A stretch of DNA of 35,670 bases from Actinomycetota bacterium (GTDB taxonomy: Bacteria; Actinomycetota; CADDZG01; WHSQ01), in contig JACDCD010000029.1 in NCBI GenBank assembly GCA_013694625.1, positions 1-35,670 on the forward strand, given 5' to 3'. Below are positions 26,234-34,250 of the stretch, in pieces. Within the stretch, counting starts at the first letter, position 1. Every line of letters starts with the position of its first letter. The notes below the pieces were generated by a model. The model was not told the DNA's origin, made no database searches, and worked only from the letters and a program-made list of their open reading frames with translations. The position numbers and the translations under genes were made by a program.

Positions 26234-26718
26234 TGCCGGTTGCCATGTGCCCCGGGTCGTTTGACCCCCCCACCAGGGGTCACGTCGACGTGGTCGAGCG
26301 CGCCTCCCGGTACTTCGAGGGAGTCGTCGTCGCGGTGATCGCCAATCCCTCCAAGGAGCCGCTCTTCAGCGTGCAGGAGAGGAGAAGCCTGCTTGCCGAT
26401 GCCCTCGCCCACGTAGAGAACGTCGAGATCGCGTCGTTCGACGGCCTCCTTGTTGACTTCGCCCGCTCCAAGGGCATTACCTTGGCCGTGAAGGGACTCC
26501 GTGCGGTGTCGGACTTCGAGTACGAGTTGCAAATGGCTCAGATGAATACGACCCTGGCGCCGGGCCTCGACACGATGTTCATGACTGCGAAGCCGTCATG
26601 GGCCTTTTTATCCTCTAGCCTCGTGAAGGAAGTGGCCCGATATGGCGGCTCCGTCGAGGGGCTCGTGCCCCCGGGGGTGGCGACGGCCCTTAGCGAACGC
26701 TACGGCCGGGAAAGGTGA
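26233..26718 (+). CDS. coaD: Phosphopantetheine adenylyltransferase
   Basis: A 161-residue nucleotidyltransferase of coenzyme A synthesis. The T/HxGH-type ATP site reads CPGSFDPPTRGHVD, followed by NPSKEPLFSVQER, AVKGLRAVSDFEYELQMAQMN and the C-terminal SSSLVKEVARYGG block that binds the triphosphate. It transfers AMP from ATP to 4'-phosphopantetheine, giving dephospho-CoA. The ATG at 26233 overlaps the rsmD stop; a TTG lies one codon earlier. The end overlaps the next gene by 4 bases. Confidence 0.96.
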   Translation: MPVAMCPGSFDPPTRGHVDVVERASRYFEGVVVAVIANPSKEPLFSVQERRSLLADALAHVENVEIASFDGLLVDFARSKGITLAVKGLRAVSDFEYELQMAQMNTTLAPGLDTMFMTAKPSWAFLSSSLVKEVARYGGSVEGLVPPGVATALSERYGRER

Positions 26719-27257
26719 CGGAGATGGATCTCATAGAAGGGATCGACGAGCTACAACTGGTGATCGAAGAGGCCAAGGCGGTGCCTCTGTCGAACAACGC
26801 GGTGGTCAACCGGGAAGAGTTGCTCGAGCTGCTGGCCCAGCTCAAGCAACAAATCCCCGACGAGGTCCGTCAAGCTCGCTGGATGACCCGGGACCGGGAT
26901 GACCTGTTGGCCCGCGCCTATAAGGAGGCCGAGCGAATAATCGCCGAAGCGCGCGCTCAGAGAGATCGCCTGTTGTCCCAGACACAGATAATGCAGGACG
27001 CCCAGCGTGAAGCCGAGCGCATCACCCAGGCGGCGCGGGACCACGCCGCGCATCTCTCCGCCGACGCCGACGAGTACATCGATGGACGCCTCAACGCGTT
27101 CGAGTTGTGGCTCAACAAGACGCTTGCGGCGGTCGAGCGGGGCCGGGCGCAGCTCGAGGCCGAGAAGCGGCCGACCCCCCCCACGGAAGTGGTGCTGGAC
27201 GAGCGGACGACGGTGGCCCCTTTCGACGCAGCGCAGTTGGGCGGCGGCTCCGTCTGA
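26715..27257 (+). CDS. SepIVA-like coiled-coil divisome protein
   Basis: A 180-residue, almost entirely helical protein. The N-terminal part (IDELQLVIEEAKAVPLSNNA, then NREELLELLAQLKQQIPDEV) and the C-terminal YIDGRLNAFELWLNKTLAAVERGRAQL resemble mycobacterial SepIVA (Rv2927c), a DivIVA-like septal protein. The central coiled coil is shorter than in mycobacteria. The neighbours agree: in mycobacteria sepIVA lies next to the DUF177 gene and rnc, as here. Automated annotation may label it an ATP synthase B-like protein. The start is GTG at 26715 or ATG at 26724. A role in septum formation or polar envelope growth is inferred from homology only. Confidence 0.7.
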   Translation: MTEMDLIEGIDELQLVIEEAKAVPLSNNAVVNREELLELLAQLKQQIPDEVRQARWMTRDRDDLLARAYKEAERIIAEARAQRDRLLSQTQIMQDAQREAERITQAARDHAAHLSADADEYIDGRLNAFELWLNKTLAAVERGRAQLEAEKRPTPPTEVVLDERTTVAPFDAAQLGGGSV

Positions 27258-29692: not shown

Positions 29693-29725
29693 CCTGTCTG
29701 GGCTTTGTCATTGGGAGGATCGAGA

Positions 29726-30001
29726 TTGGAAGATAGGACCCGCGTCCATGTGTTCGTCTCCGGCACGGTCCAGGGCGTGGGATTTCGCCAGGCGGTGCTG
29801 GACAAAGCGAACGAGCTCGATGTCACCGGATGGGTCAAGAACCTGCCGGACGGCCGCATCGAGGCTGTGTTGGAAGGGCCGCGCGACGATGTGTACAGGG
29901 TCGTCGGCTTGTGCCGAGCCGGTCCCCAGGGCGCCCAGGTGTCGGGCGTGCAGGTCGACCGGGAGCCGCCGAAGAACGAGAAGTCCTTCAGACTGAAATA
30001 G
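29726..30001 (+). CDS. acyP: Acylphosphatase
   Basis: A 91-residue acylphosphatase. The phosphate-binding loop VSGTVQGVGFRQ contains the catalytic Arg21, and GWVKNLPDGRIEAVLEG contains the catalytic Asn39. It hydrolyses carboxyl-phosphate bonds of small acyl phosphates. The TTG at 29726 is chosen because GGGAGG lies 7 bases upstream; an earlier in-frame TTG at 29705 lacks one. It sits between the mutM-like gene and smc, a common placement in actinobacteria. Confidence 0.92.
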   Translation: MEDRTRVHVFVSGTVQGVGFRQAVLDKANELDVTGWVKNLPDGRIEAVLEGPRDDVYRVVGLCRAGPQGAQVSGVQVDREPPKNEKSFRLK

Positions 30002-30040: not shown

Positions 30041-33000
30041 ATGCATGTGAGGTCTTTGCGCGTCGCGGGTTTCAAGTCCTTCGGCGACCCGGTCGTCTTC
30101 GAGTGGAAGCCCGGGGCCAACGCGATCATCGGCCCCAACGGCTCGGGCAAGTCCAACATCGCAGACGCCGTGGCGTGGGTTCTGGGCTCACAAGCGCCCT
30201 CGAGTTTGCGGTCGGGATCGATGGAAGATGTCATCTTCGCGGGATCGCAGCGCCGGGAGCGCCTGGGGGTTGCGGAGGTCGAGCTCACCCTCGAGGGCTC
30301 GTTCGGCGACATGCCCCTTGACCTTGCAGAGATCACCATCAGCCGCTCGACCGACCGCACCGGCATGTCCGGATACAGGATCAACGGGGTGCCGTGCCGG
30401 CTGCTCGACGTGGCGGAGCTGCTGTCCGACACCGGGATCGGCCGCAACCTCCACACCGTGGTCGGCCAGGGTCAGCTCGACGTGATCCTTCAGGCGCGCC
30501 CCGAAGACCGGCGCACGCTGATCGAGGAGGCTGCCCAAATCGGCAAGTTCCGGCGCCGGAAGGAGCGCTCGGTGCGAAAAATCGAACGGGTCGACGACAA
30601 CCTCATGCGGCTGGGCGACGTTATGTCGGAGCTCAAGCGGGCGATCCGCCCGCTCAAGCGCCAGGCGTTGGCCGCAGCGCAGTACTCCGAGCTCATGGAG
30701 GAGCACAGGACTCTCAGGCAGCGCCTGAGCGCCGCGGAGCTCGCCGAGCTCGCCGAGGCCGAGGCACGCTGGGATCCAGCCGGCGAGGAGCGGCGCGCCG
30801 GGCTGCTGCGGGAGGAGCTGGAGCACGTCCGTGCGGCGCTCGGACGCGTCGCGGGTGAGCGTGTGGAGCTCGATCGACAGGCGCAGAGGCAGCTCGCGCT
30901 CGCCACCGGGATCGTGCGCGCCGCGGACCGACTCGCCGGCACCGGACGGCTGGCGCTCGAGCGGGTCCAGCGTATCGCCGCACAGCTCGAGGCGGAGACC
31001 GAGGAGCGTTACCAGGAGCGGATCCGGCTTCTGGAGGGCGAACGGGAGCGCTGGGACCAGGCCGCTGCCGATGAAGTACGCGCCGCCACAGAGGCCCACC
31101 GTGTCGCCGTTGCGCAAGAAGAGCGCGCCGCCACCGCGATCAGAACGTCCGAGCGGGCAGAGGCGGCGCTCGCCGAAACGCGGTCGGCTGAAACGCTGGC
31201 CGCCCAGGAGCTCGTGCGCGCCGAAGGGGCCGAGGCAGCGGGACGGACCAGCCTCAGCGCGCTGGACGCCCAGGCACGAGCCGCCCTCGAGCGTGGTGAG
31301 GTGGCGGAGGGGGCCCTCCACACGGCGGCCCGGGCCGTGGGGGAGGCCGAGACCGAGGTGGCGGCGCTCGGGATGGATCTGTCCTCGGGGGTCGCTGCGG
31401 CCGCTGAGGCGGAGTCCCGTCACGAGGAGGAACGGGACCGCGCCGAGAGCCTGAGACAACGGCTCGGCGTGAGCCGGATCGAGCTGGCGGCGGCGGAGGC
31501 GCGGGCGGCGACCCTCGAAGAGGTGGCCGGGTTATTCCGTGGACGGGATGACGTCCTGACCCGTCTCGGACCCCTGATGGCCGATGCGGGCGAGGCCGTT
31601 CGCCTCGCATCGGCGAGCGAGGACGATGCCGCCGGGATCGTCGCCGGGGTGGAGGCAGCCATCGAGGACCGCTGGGTCGAGGTCGCCCGGTGCGATGGGG
31701 CCCTTCGACACCTGAAGACACGCATGTCGGGCGCCACCGAGCGGCTGGAAGGGGCCCGTCGGGACACAGCGATGCGCGAGACCGAGCTTGCCGCACTCAA
31801 CGAGGAGCTCGCCCGCGCCAGGACGGCCCTGGCGGCGACCGAGCGTGCCGCCACCGAAGATCGTGCTGCTCTCCCGGCGCGGCGGGCCGTCCTGGAACAG
31901 GCGGGCTTCGAGCGCGCCGGCGCCGAGGCGGCGGCCGAGGCGGCCCGCCTGGAGACGGCTGTCGAACGCACCGCCGCGACCCAGACCGGGCTCGACGCCC
32001 GGAGCGCCGAGGAGCGGGTGCTGGCGGCACAGCTGAGGCTCGAAGAGGCGCTTGCCGGCATTGGCGACGCTCAGACTGCGCTGGCGGGGCTGGAGGAACA
32101 TCGCTCGGTGTTGTCCTCGGCGCGCCGGCGCGCCGAGGATGTCGCCCGGATCGCGGGCCTCGCCTCCACGATAGCCCGCCGGTGGGGGGAGGGGAGTGAC
32201 GCCCGGGCCGGGGCGACCCGCGCCGAGGCCGCCGAACGCGACGCCCGGGCCGGATCGATGAGGGACAGGCAGGCCGAGCTCGAGCAGCGGTTGGAAGCGG
32301 TCAACCGCGCCCGGGGTGAGGCGGAGGTCCGGCAGGCCGAGGCGCGCGCCCGGATAGACGGGCTCTGCGCGAGGGCGATGGAGGACTGGGGCTATACGCG
32401 CTCCGATCTCGGCGCCATGGAGCCGTTCCCCGAAGGTGAGCAGGCCGGCGCAAACGAGCGCGTGGCGGCGCTCGAACGACGCATGCGCTCCCTTGGCGGG
32501 ATCAACCCGATGGCTCAGGAGGAGTTCACCGAGCTCGACGAGCGCGCCGGGTTTCTGCAGGAGCAGATGGGCGACCTACGGGCGTCGCGCCGCGACCTCA
32601 TGGCGATTGTGCGCGAGGTGGACGCAACAATCGTCACCGAATTCTCCTCGGCCTTCGCCGACGTTGCGCATGAGTTCGAAGGGGTCTTCGAACGGCTGTT
32701 CCCGGGTGGCCGGGCCAGGATGACCCTGGCCGACCCCGACGACCCACTGGCGAGTGGGATCGAGATCGAGGCCCGCCCCGCCGGGAAGAGGGTGAACAAG
32801 TTGTCGCTGCTCTCCGGGGGCGAGCGGTCGCTGGTCGCTCTTGCATTCCTGTTCTCGATCTTCAGGGCACGGCCGTCGCCCTTCTACCTGCTCGATGAGG
32901 TGGAGGCGGCGCTGGATGATGTCAACCTCAGCCGATTTCTCGGCCTGGTGGCCGACCTCAAAGAGGGTGCGCAGGTGCTCATCGTGACCCATCAGAAGCG

Positions 33001-33115
33001 CACGATGGAGGCCGCTGATGTCCTCTACGGCGTTTCGATGGGGCCCGAGGGCGTCTCGCGCGTCGTTGCGAAACGCCTCGAGCAGCGGGTGGCGGGGCAG
33101 GGTGCCGCCGGGTAG
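30041..33115 (+). CDS. smc: Chromosome segregation protein SMC, apparently lacking the hinge domain
   Basis: A 1024-residue SMC ATPase. The N-terminal head has Walker A GPNGSGKSN (31-39) and VGQGQLDVIL (141-150). A long Arg/Glu/Ala-rich coil runs from about 170 to 490. The C-terminal coil from about 545 to 840 leads to LSLLSGGERSLVALAFLFS (signature, about 921-939) and Walker B FYLLDEVEAALDD (about 947-959). Bacterial Smc is usually about 1150-1200 residues, with a hinge of about 150 residues between the coils. Here the coils are joined by about 50 residues (LFRGRDDVLTRLGPLMADA and following) with no recognisable hinge G-x-V-x-DL motif. Both heads look intact, so an ATPase is expected. The partners ScpA/ScpB are not in the window. 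Leaderless-type promoter upstream. Confidence 0.92.
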   Translation: MHVRSLRVAGFKSFGDPVVFEWKPGANAIIGPNGSGKSNIADAVAWVLGSQAPSSLRSGSMEDVIFAGSQRRERLGVAEVELTLEGSFGDMPLDLAEITISRSTDRTGMSGYRINGVPCRLLDVAELLSDTGIGRNLHTVVGQGQLDVILQARPEDRRTLIEEAAQIGKFRRRKERSVRKIERVDDNLMRLGDVMSELKRAIRPLKRQALAAAQYSELMEEHRTLRQRLSAAELAELAEAEARWDPAGEERRAGLLREELEHVRAALGRVAGERVELDRQAQRQLALATGIVRAADRLAGTGRLALERVQRIAAQLEAETEERYQERIRLLEGERERWDQAAADEVRAATEAHRVAVAQEERAATAIRTSERAEAALAETRSAETLAAQELVRAEGAEAAGRTSLSALDAQARAALERGEVAEGALHTAARAVGEAETEVAALGMDLSSGVAAAAEAESRHEEERDRAESLRQRLGVSRIELAAAEARAATLEEVAGLFRGRDDVLTRLGPLMADAGEAVRLASASEDDAAGIVAGVEAAIEDRWVEVARCDGALRHLKTRMSGATERLEGARRDTAMRETELAALNEELARARTALAATERAATEDRAALPARRAVLEQAGFERAGAEAAAEAARLETAVERTAATQTGLDARSAEERVLAAQLRLEEALAGIGDAQTALAGLEEHRSVLSSARRRAEDVARIAGLASTIARRWGEGSDARAGATRAEAAERDARAGSMRDRQAELEQRLEAVNRARGEAEVRQAEARARIDGLCARAMEDWGYTRSDLGAMEPFPEGEQAGANERVAALERRMRSLGGINPMAQEEFTELDERAGFLQEQMGDLRASRRDLMAIVREVDATIVTEFSSAFADVAHEFEGVFERLFPGGRARMTLADPDDPLASGIEIEARPAGKRVNKLSLLSGGERSLVALAFLFSIFRARPSPFYLLDEVEAALDDVNLSRFLGLVADLKEGAQVLIVTHQKRTMEAADVLYGVSMGPEGVSRVVAKRLEQRVAGQGAAG

Positions 33116-33161: not shown

Positions 33162-34250
33162 ATGTCTGATCTCATCATTCCGCTCATCGCCGTTCTGTTC
33201 GTCGTCGCTCTGGTCGCGGGTCTGGTGATAGGGACCCGGCGGCGCCCATCCGCCCCGGCGCAGCGGCCCGCCCGGGGCGCTCGGGTCACCCGGCCACAGA
33301 GTCCTCCCGTGGTCACCGAGTCGCCGAGGGAGCAGGCCGCTGCGCCGGCCGAGGCGCGGCCGTCCCTGCGAGACCGCTTAGGCAAGAGCCGGCGCTTCTT
33401 CGGAGACCGGCTGGCCGAGACCCTCGGAGGGGGCCTGGACGAGGACACCTGGGACGACATCGAGGCGGTCCTGATCCAGGCCGACATCGGCGTCGCCACG
33501 GCAAGGAGGATCACCGAAGATCTCAGGGCCCGGGCGCGCGAACGCAGGCTGGGCGACGCCGCCGAGATACGGGCGCTGCTCGCCGATGAGCTGGTGTCCC
33601 TGTTCGATGCCACTCACGACAGGGCGCTCGCCTTCGGACCCGAGCCCCCGACCGTGTGGTTGGTCGTCGGGGTCAACGGCACGGGGAAGACCACGACGAT
33701 CGGAAAGCTGACGTCCGACCTTGCCCACCGTGGCCGGACCGTGGCCCTTGCCGCAGGGGACACCTTCAGGGCCGCCGCAGACGAACAGCTCGGCATCTGG
33801 GCCGAGCGCTCGGGGGCGACGCTGATCAAGCATCAACCGGGCGCCGACCCGGGGGCGGTCGCCTTCGACGCCTACGCTCATGCAAAGGCGCGCGGCATCG
33901 ACGTCCTTCTCGTGGACACGGCGGGACGGTTGCACACGAAGACGCCCCTCATGGACGAGCTGGGGAAGGTCAGACGGGTGATCGAGCGACAGGGTCAGGT
34001 ACACGAGGCGCTGCTCGTGATCGACGCTACTGCGGGCCAGAACGGCCTTGTGCAGGCGAGGGAGTTTGCAGACTCTGTCGGGGTGACGGGAGTCGCCCTC
34101 ACCAAGCTGGACGGCACCGCCAAGGGCGGGATCGCTCTGGCGATCGAGACCACCCTCGGCATTCCCATCAAGATCATCGGCGTGGGCGAGGGCATCGACG
34201 ACCTCGAGCCGTTCGACCCCAAGACCTTCGTGGACGCGTTGCTGTCGTGA
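33162..34250 (+). CDS. ftsY: Signal recognition particle receptor FtsY
   Basis: A 362-residue SRP GTPase. An N-terminal membrane helix (LIIPLIAVLFVVALVAGLVI, about 4-23) anchors it, followed by a Pro/Ala/Arg-rich linker and the NG domain. The four-helix N domain has DEDTWDDIEAVLIQADIGV; the G domain has GVNGTGKTTTIGKL (about 170-183), GDTFRAAADEQL, DTAGR, TKLDGTAKGG and GVGEGIDDLEPF. It docks ribosome-SRP complexes to the membrane for co-translational insertion. Its TGA overlaps the GTG of the next gene, and ffh follows after that. Confidence 0.96.
   Translation: MSDLIIPLIAVLFVVALVAGLVIGTRRRPSAPAQRPARGARVTRPQSPPVVTESPREQAAAPAEARPSLRDRLGKSRRFFGDRLAETLGGGLDEDTWDDIEAVLIQADIGVATARRITEDLRARARERRLGDAAEIRALLADELVSLFDATHDRALAFGPEPPTVWLVVGVNGTGKTTTIGKLTSDLAHRGRTVALAAGDTFRAAADEQLGIWAERSGATLIKHQPGADPGAVAFDAYAHAKARGIDVLLVDTAGRLHTKTPLMDELGKVRRVIERQGQVHEALLVIDATAGQNGLVQAREFADSVGVTGVALTKLDGTAKGGIALAIETTLGIPIKIIGVGEGIDDLEPFDPKTFVDALLS

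Follow-up and report, generated by a model that had tools for sequence, protein, structure and literature searches.

The window analyzed here, a stretch of 35,670 bases (contig C159), contains an smc gene that the initial annotation described as encoding a protein without a recognizable hinge domain. The locus raises the question of whether the hinge is truly absent and, if so, how such an Smc would dimerize.

Features of the smc gene

The gene was found as the single uninterrupted frame of 1024 codons that had been reported. Its neighbors are rnc, mutM, an acylphosphatase gene, and ftsY, an ordinary setting, since these genes are the usual surroundings of bacterial smc. The features of the locus are as follows.

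29705–30001, forward strand: acylphosphatase gene, upstream of smc (PF00708, E = 5e-24)
30041–33115, forward strand: smc, one unbroken open reading frame encoding a hinge-less Smc ortholog of 1024 residues
30041–30535, forward strand: N-terminal half of the ATPase head, residues 1–165, holding Walker A and the Q-loop (from motifs and conservation; boundary approximate)
30131–30157, forward strand: Walker A, GPNGSGKSN, residues 31–39 (from the sequence; near-invariant across 13 relatives)
30536–31462, forward strand: N-terminal coiled-coil arm strand, residues 166–474 (helical in AlphaFold; equal in length to the sister-family strand by alignment)
31166–31255, forward strand: distal N-arm region, residues 376–405, with 391–405 strongly conserved; candidate arm–arm contact
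31463–31618, forward strand: tip in the place of the hinge, residues 475–526 (AlphaFold hairpin of helices 479–498 and 503–523; no PF06470 match)
31619–32590, forward strand: C-terminal coiled-coil arm strand, residues 527–850 (helical in AlphaFold; boundary to the head approximate)
31661–31885, forward strand: distal C-arm, residues 541–615, with invariant W545 (from conservation); candidate arm–arm contact
32810–32824, forward strand: ABC signature LSGGE, residues 924–928 (from the sequence)
32876–32920, forward strand: Walker B and D-loop region, SPFYLLDEVEAALDD, residues 946–960 (invariant where family members extend that far)
33162–34250, forward strand: ftsY, downstream of smc (PF00448, E = 2e-71; PF02881), a context that backs orthology

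Walker A, the Q-loop (Q143), LSGGE, and Walker B (YLLDE, residues 949–953) were all located within one head, which bears out the earlier description of the head motifs as complete. The protein matched PF02463 (SMC_N; E = 4e-63) and scored 692.4 bits against the Smc equivalog TIGR02168 (cut-off 567.35), with the match split into two stretches. Based on the TIGR02168 score and the rnc–mutM–acyP–smc–ftsY synteny, we regard the gene as a true Smc ortholog by descent, albeit one without a canonical hinge. Elsewhere in the window, between coaD and yceD, an open reading frame at 26715–27257 (forward strand) showed a weak DivIVA-like match (E = 0.008) under the curated cut-off.

Absence of the hinge

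The hinge profile PF06470 (SMC_hinge) gave no match in the window Smc at E ≤ 1, none in the segment 31388–31790 at E ≤ 10, and none in the whole genome of the window, so that a free-standing hinge gene was also ruled out; the same genome-wide search produced a match in 10 of 14 control genomes. The claim that no hinge is recognizable thus held for protein, segment, and genome alike. The AlphaFold model of the window Smc (13 rows) consisted of an arm helix (residues 321–474), the two hairpin helices, and a second arm helix (527–682), with no beta strands in the tip and a pLDDT of 73–82 over it. The head of this model was poor (pTM 0.29), and local secondary structure alone was used. The connector between the arms, which the initial annotation had put at about residues 496–545, is short as described, but its position differs, as the model places the tip at about residues 475–526. 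A Foldseek search with the full-length model returned SMC-type matches with poor superposition and was uninformative on the tip. A zinc hook at the apex was ruled out by the absence of a CXXC motif in every examined member of the window's family.

The lost segment was delimited by comparison with sister families of the same class (f2 and f3). The Walker A-to-LSGGE spacing was 1031–1037 residues in the sister families versus 892–893 in all 10 complete or near-complete genes used from the window's family, and the Q-loop-to-signature spacing was 919–925 in f2 and f3 versus 780–781, a difference of 138–139 residues in most. Alignment placed the approximately 138 extra residues of f2 and f3 at the tip. 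Judged from alignments and models, these residues are the hinge that was lost, and the arms keep their length; the earlier estimate that the missing length equals one hinge agrees with this shortfall of 138 residues relative to the sister families.

The f2/f3 hinge (L066–L072) is itself weakly matched by PF06470, with 27.9–36.5 bits in five genomes, while three others gave none at E ≤ 0.001. Two sister-family genomes, G019 and G020, lie under the Pfam cut-off, yet their hinge region aligns. AlphaFold predicted the f2/f3 tip (7 rows, with L066 of f2 first) as a mixed alpha/beta domain, and a Foldseek search with the L066-based tip matched the Smc hinges of Pyrococcus, Geobacillus, and Thermotoga. 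As modeled, the f2/f3 hinge is weak in sequence but real, and this tip, with its fold tested on L066, served as the positive control for the AlphaFold/Foldseek pipeline. A divergent hinge hidden in the window Smc was ruled out because neither the AlphaFold model nor Pfam at E ≤ 10 over the segment shows one, and because the same method recovers the weak-Pfam hinge of a sister family.

In canonical Smc, the glycine-rich end of the hinge is required for dimerization. This end looks eroded in the sister families (GVMATGRLLV in f2 and GAVAHGGLVSKG in f3), suggesting that the hinge interface may have weakened ahead of hinge loss. Families f4 and f19 (L073, L078, and L079) have another short Smc, of about 960–978 residues, in which a hinge match is kept and the arms are shortened.

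Distribution and maintenance within the family

A PF06470 match was absent from all 16 genomes of the window's family, which represent 13 genera and comprise the window and 15 other species. Whole-protein genome searches retrieved collinear same-family genes over about residues 1–1015, with 54–59% identity where complete, and the family alignment was free of gaps over residues 1–787, with 52–63% identity to the window Smc. All 13 named loci from the public genome collection are labeled Actinomycetota or actinobacterium. With at least 10 readable genes sharing the gap-free architecture, the initial proposal that this lineage uses a hinge-less Smc was upheld, and its alternative, an in-frame deletion in this copy, was contradicted by the same architecture in at least 10 independently assembled relatives.

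The metagenome assembly that holds the window is fragmented (2.72 Mb, 98.2% complete, 230 contigs), which would be in keeping with an assembly collapse or an in-frame deletion peculiar to this copy. Against this explanation, at least 10 independent relatives are collinear, some of them on contigs that range from hundreds of kb up to 1 Mb, and none of the 16 family genomes has a hinge; moreover, the long contigs that carry some of the family smc genes (about 1,046 kb and 336 kb) exclude a collapsed assembly. The approximately 450 extra bases that, according to the initial annotation, would speak against its proposal if seen in related genomes were found in no family genome and only in the sister families. 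The relatives have already refuted this reading, and we give it practically no probability.

The dN/dS ratio between congeneric species was about 0.1 over residues 1–690 and 0.11–0.20 in the tip; to judge from these substitutions, the family smc is under purifying selection and is a maintained gene. Whole-protein searches detected no second Smc in the window's genome, where the sole other match was weak (35% over residues 922–1019, in a 970-residue frame), and the hinge-less protein is the only detected Smc of the window's family. A family-wide hinge-less Smc within the Smc–ScpAB gene set is almost certainly real.

Partner genes and relationship to other SMC systems

ScpA was found in 14 of the 16 family genomes, ScpB in 15, and ParB in 13; ScpA and ParB are present in the window's genome, and scpA and scpB are adjacent there on contig C17. 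A search of this genome for consensus parS with at most two mismatches found no site. Two relatives carry TGTTCCACGTGGAACA (G009:C95:17098–17113, on the parB contig, and G015:C92:147–162), and these sites suggest an altered parS. The MksE/JetB partner (PF13835) was detected in none of the 24 genomes of the class, with Corynebacterium glutamicum as a positive control. Its absence rules out replacement by MksBEF or Wadjet and sets the window Smc apart from MukBEF, MksBEF, and Wadjet systems.

The window Smc shares the head, the signature motifs, and arms of about 300 residues with the canonical Smc of Smc–ScpAB (TIGR02168, B. subtilis type), along with ScpA, ScpB, and ParB in the genome, the ftsY synteny, and TIGR02168 as the best NCBIfam match. 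It differs in lacking the whole hinge (about 138 residues) and having a predicted helical hairpin instead. Rad50/SbcC zinc-hook proteins resemble it in that their head carries an antiparallel coiled coil whose apex is small and takes the position of the hinge, and the tip of the window Smc may work like such an alternative apex; however, the window Smc lacks CXXC, has a head of Smc type by profile, and is not a member of this group.

Hinge-less Smc is a kind already known, and the window's family is a new variant of it: a 2025 survey described a hinge-less SMC from abundant oceanic Actinobacteria as a possible new kind of biology (PMC12153180). The oceanic proteins (OM-RGC cluster 9; PMC12153180) are likewise actinobacterial, without hinge and CXXC, and apparently not paralogs of a normal Smc. 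The arms keep the standard length in the window's family. The main text of the survey does not mention ScpA (PMC12153180).

Families f6 and f26 (L074, L075, and L076; G026, G040, and G054) encode Smc proteins of 737–885 residues without a hinge match, with ScpA present and a GC content of 28–40% at their smc loci; they may belong with the oceanic type (PMC12153180). In the head tree, f6 and f26 grouped away from the window's family, which fell among f2/f3 and other hinge-bearing groups, although this tree is not final, as f6 and f26 are long branches of unusual composition. A common origin with the hinge-less Smc of these long-branched families was set aside because the head tree separates them. 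The hinge loss in the window's family looks like an independent event, which is the simplest reading given the hinge-bearing sister families in the same class.

Conservation of the arms and possible routes of dimerization

Head conservation was alike in the window's family and f2/f3 (0.81 and 0.82), whereas identity over the distal C-strand (residues 541–615) was 0.64 in the window's family versus 0.34 in f2/f3, and that over the N-strand patch 391–405 was 0.82 versus 0.48. Conservation of the distal arm relative to the proximal arm gave a ratio of 1.27 in the window's family versus 0.55–0.94 in all but one of nine hinge-bearing groups. The exception, f44 (four sequences), had a ratio of 1.20, given which the shift toward the distal arm is not unique to the window's family and is suggestive only. 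Symmetric conservation nodes, with both arm strands conserved at equal distances from the apex, were rejected, since about 11% of shifted controls showed a correlation as high as that observed (0.39).

With ScpA, ScpB, and the full set of ATPase motifs retained, dimerization by another route would be the natural reading. We propose that the window Smc is the ordinary chromosomal Smc of an Smc–ScpAB condensin, that a clean loss of the hinge took place in the ancestor of its actinobacterial family, and that its arms dimerize instead. We lean slightly toward this statement as a whole; arm–arm dimerization as the replacement for the hinge, which rests on conservation patterns, we regard as evenly poised. 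By sequence, the head, neck, fixed-length arms, ScpA, ScpB, and ParB are kept, and a short tip, predicted to be a helical hairpin, replaces the hinge. Two Smc would lie alongside each other, arm against arm, to form a rod, the contacts of the distal arms (residues about 376–495 and 541–615) having taken over the job of the hinge. Ring closure at the heads would still be provided by ScpA. As in other Smc complexes, head engagement driven by ATP would open the part of the arms nearest the heads, and a hinge gate would not be needed for DNA loading or looping. The predicted cost is that functions depending on the hinge, obstacle bypass among them, are lost.

In B. subtilis Smc, the arms run alongside each other and touch in seven regions; these contacts probably aid dimerization of hinge-less Smc (PMC5526789). 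Once hinge dimerization is lost, however, B. subtilis Smc is non-functional (PMC5344682), so that arm contacts alone are insufficient in that organism, which counts against arm pairing. A Wadjet complex without the segment from elbow to hinge still acts on DNA if its arms are cross-linked, with no obstacle bypass (PMC12647877). The Smc hinge can be exchanged for the unrelated Rad50 hook (PMC5344682), and the Rad50 hook for the MukB hinge (PMC6969161). In these engineered systems, the hinge fold is replaceable, or, in Wadjet, dispensable for loop extrusion, if the arms stay joined; they are laboratory constructs, whereas the case of the window's family is natural and fixed in the family.

The exchange for the Rad50 hook, in which an unrelated apical dimerizer stands in for the hinge (PMC5344682), also fits a tip-to-tip arrangement, in which the apical helical hairpins (residues 475–526) of two Smc would bundle into a mini-hinge of new fold, similar to a Rad50 hook without zinc. 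The hairpin is predicted by AlphaFold, its length is constant across the family, and A487, R488, V495, and L512 are near-invariant. Residues 496–540 of the tip nevertheless show comparatively low conservation within the family Smc (0.33–0.43), unlike what would be expected of the main dimer interface, and dN/dS was higher at the tip (0.20) in one of two species pairs. We consider this arrangement possible but rather unlikely, and favor dimerization by the arms over that by the tip because the distal arms are unusually conserved and the tip only weakly so.

Hinge-deleted yeast Smc5 and Smc6 join through their heads with ATP (PMC8327961), and the heads and ScpA are wholly retained in the window's family. 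A resting Smc that is monomeric, with ScpA bound to head and neck and the heads meeting only in an ATP-dependent manner, so that the complex forms a clamp that stays open instead of a ring, would accord with these observations. Arms that end freely are hard to square with the fixed arm length and the conserved distal arms, and opening of the ring abolished DNA cleavage by Wadjet (PMC12647877); we judge the absence of a stable dimer improbable. Still less probable, and in our estimation a marginal option, is a separate family-specific protein acting as a cap that links the two tips in the place of the hinge, as the genome has no free-standing hinge domain and the smc neighborhood is ordinary.

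Implications

The hinge is seen as near-universal and essential in SMC ring complexes, and its role beyond dimerization is debated. With ScpAB and ParB intact and hinge-bearing sister families available for comparison, the window's family is a natural experiment on the role of the hinge.
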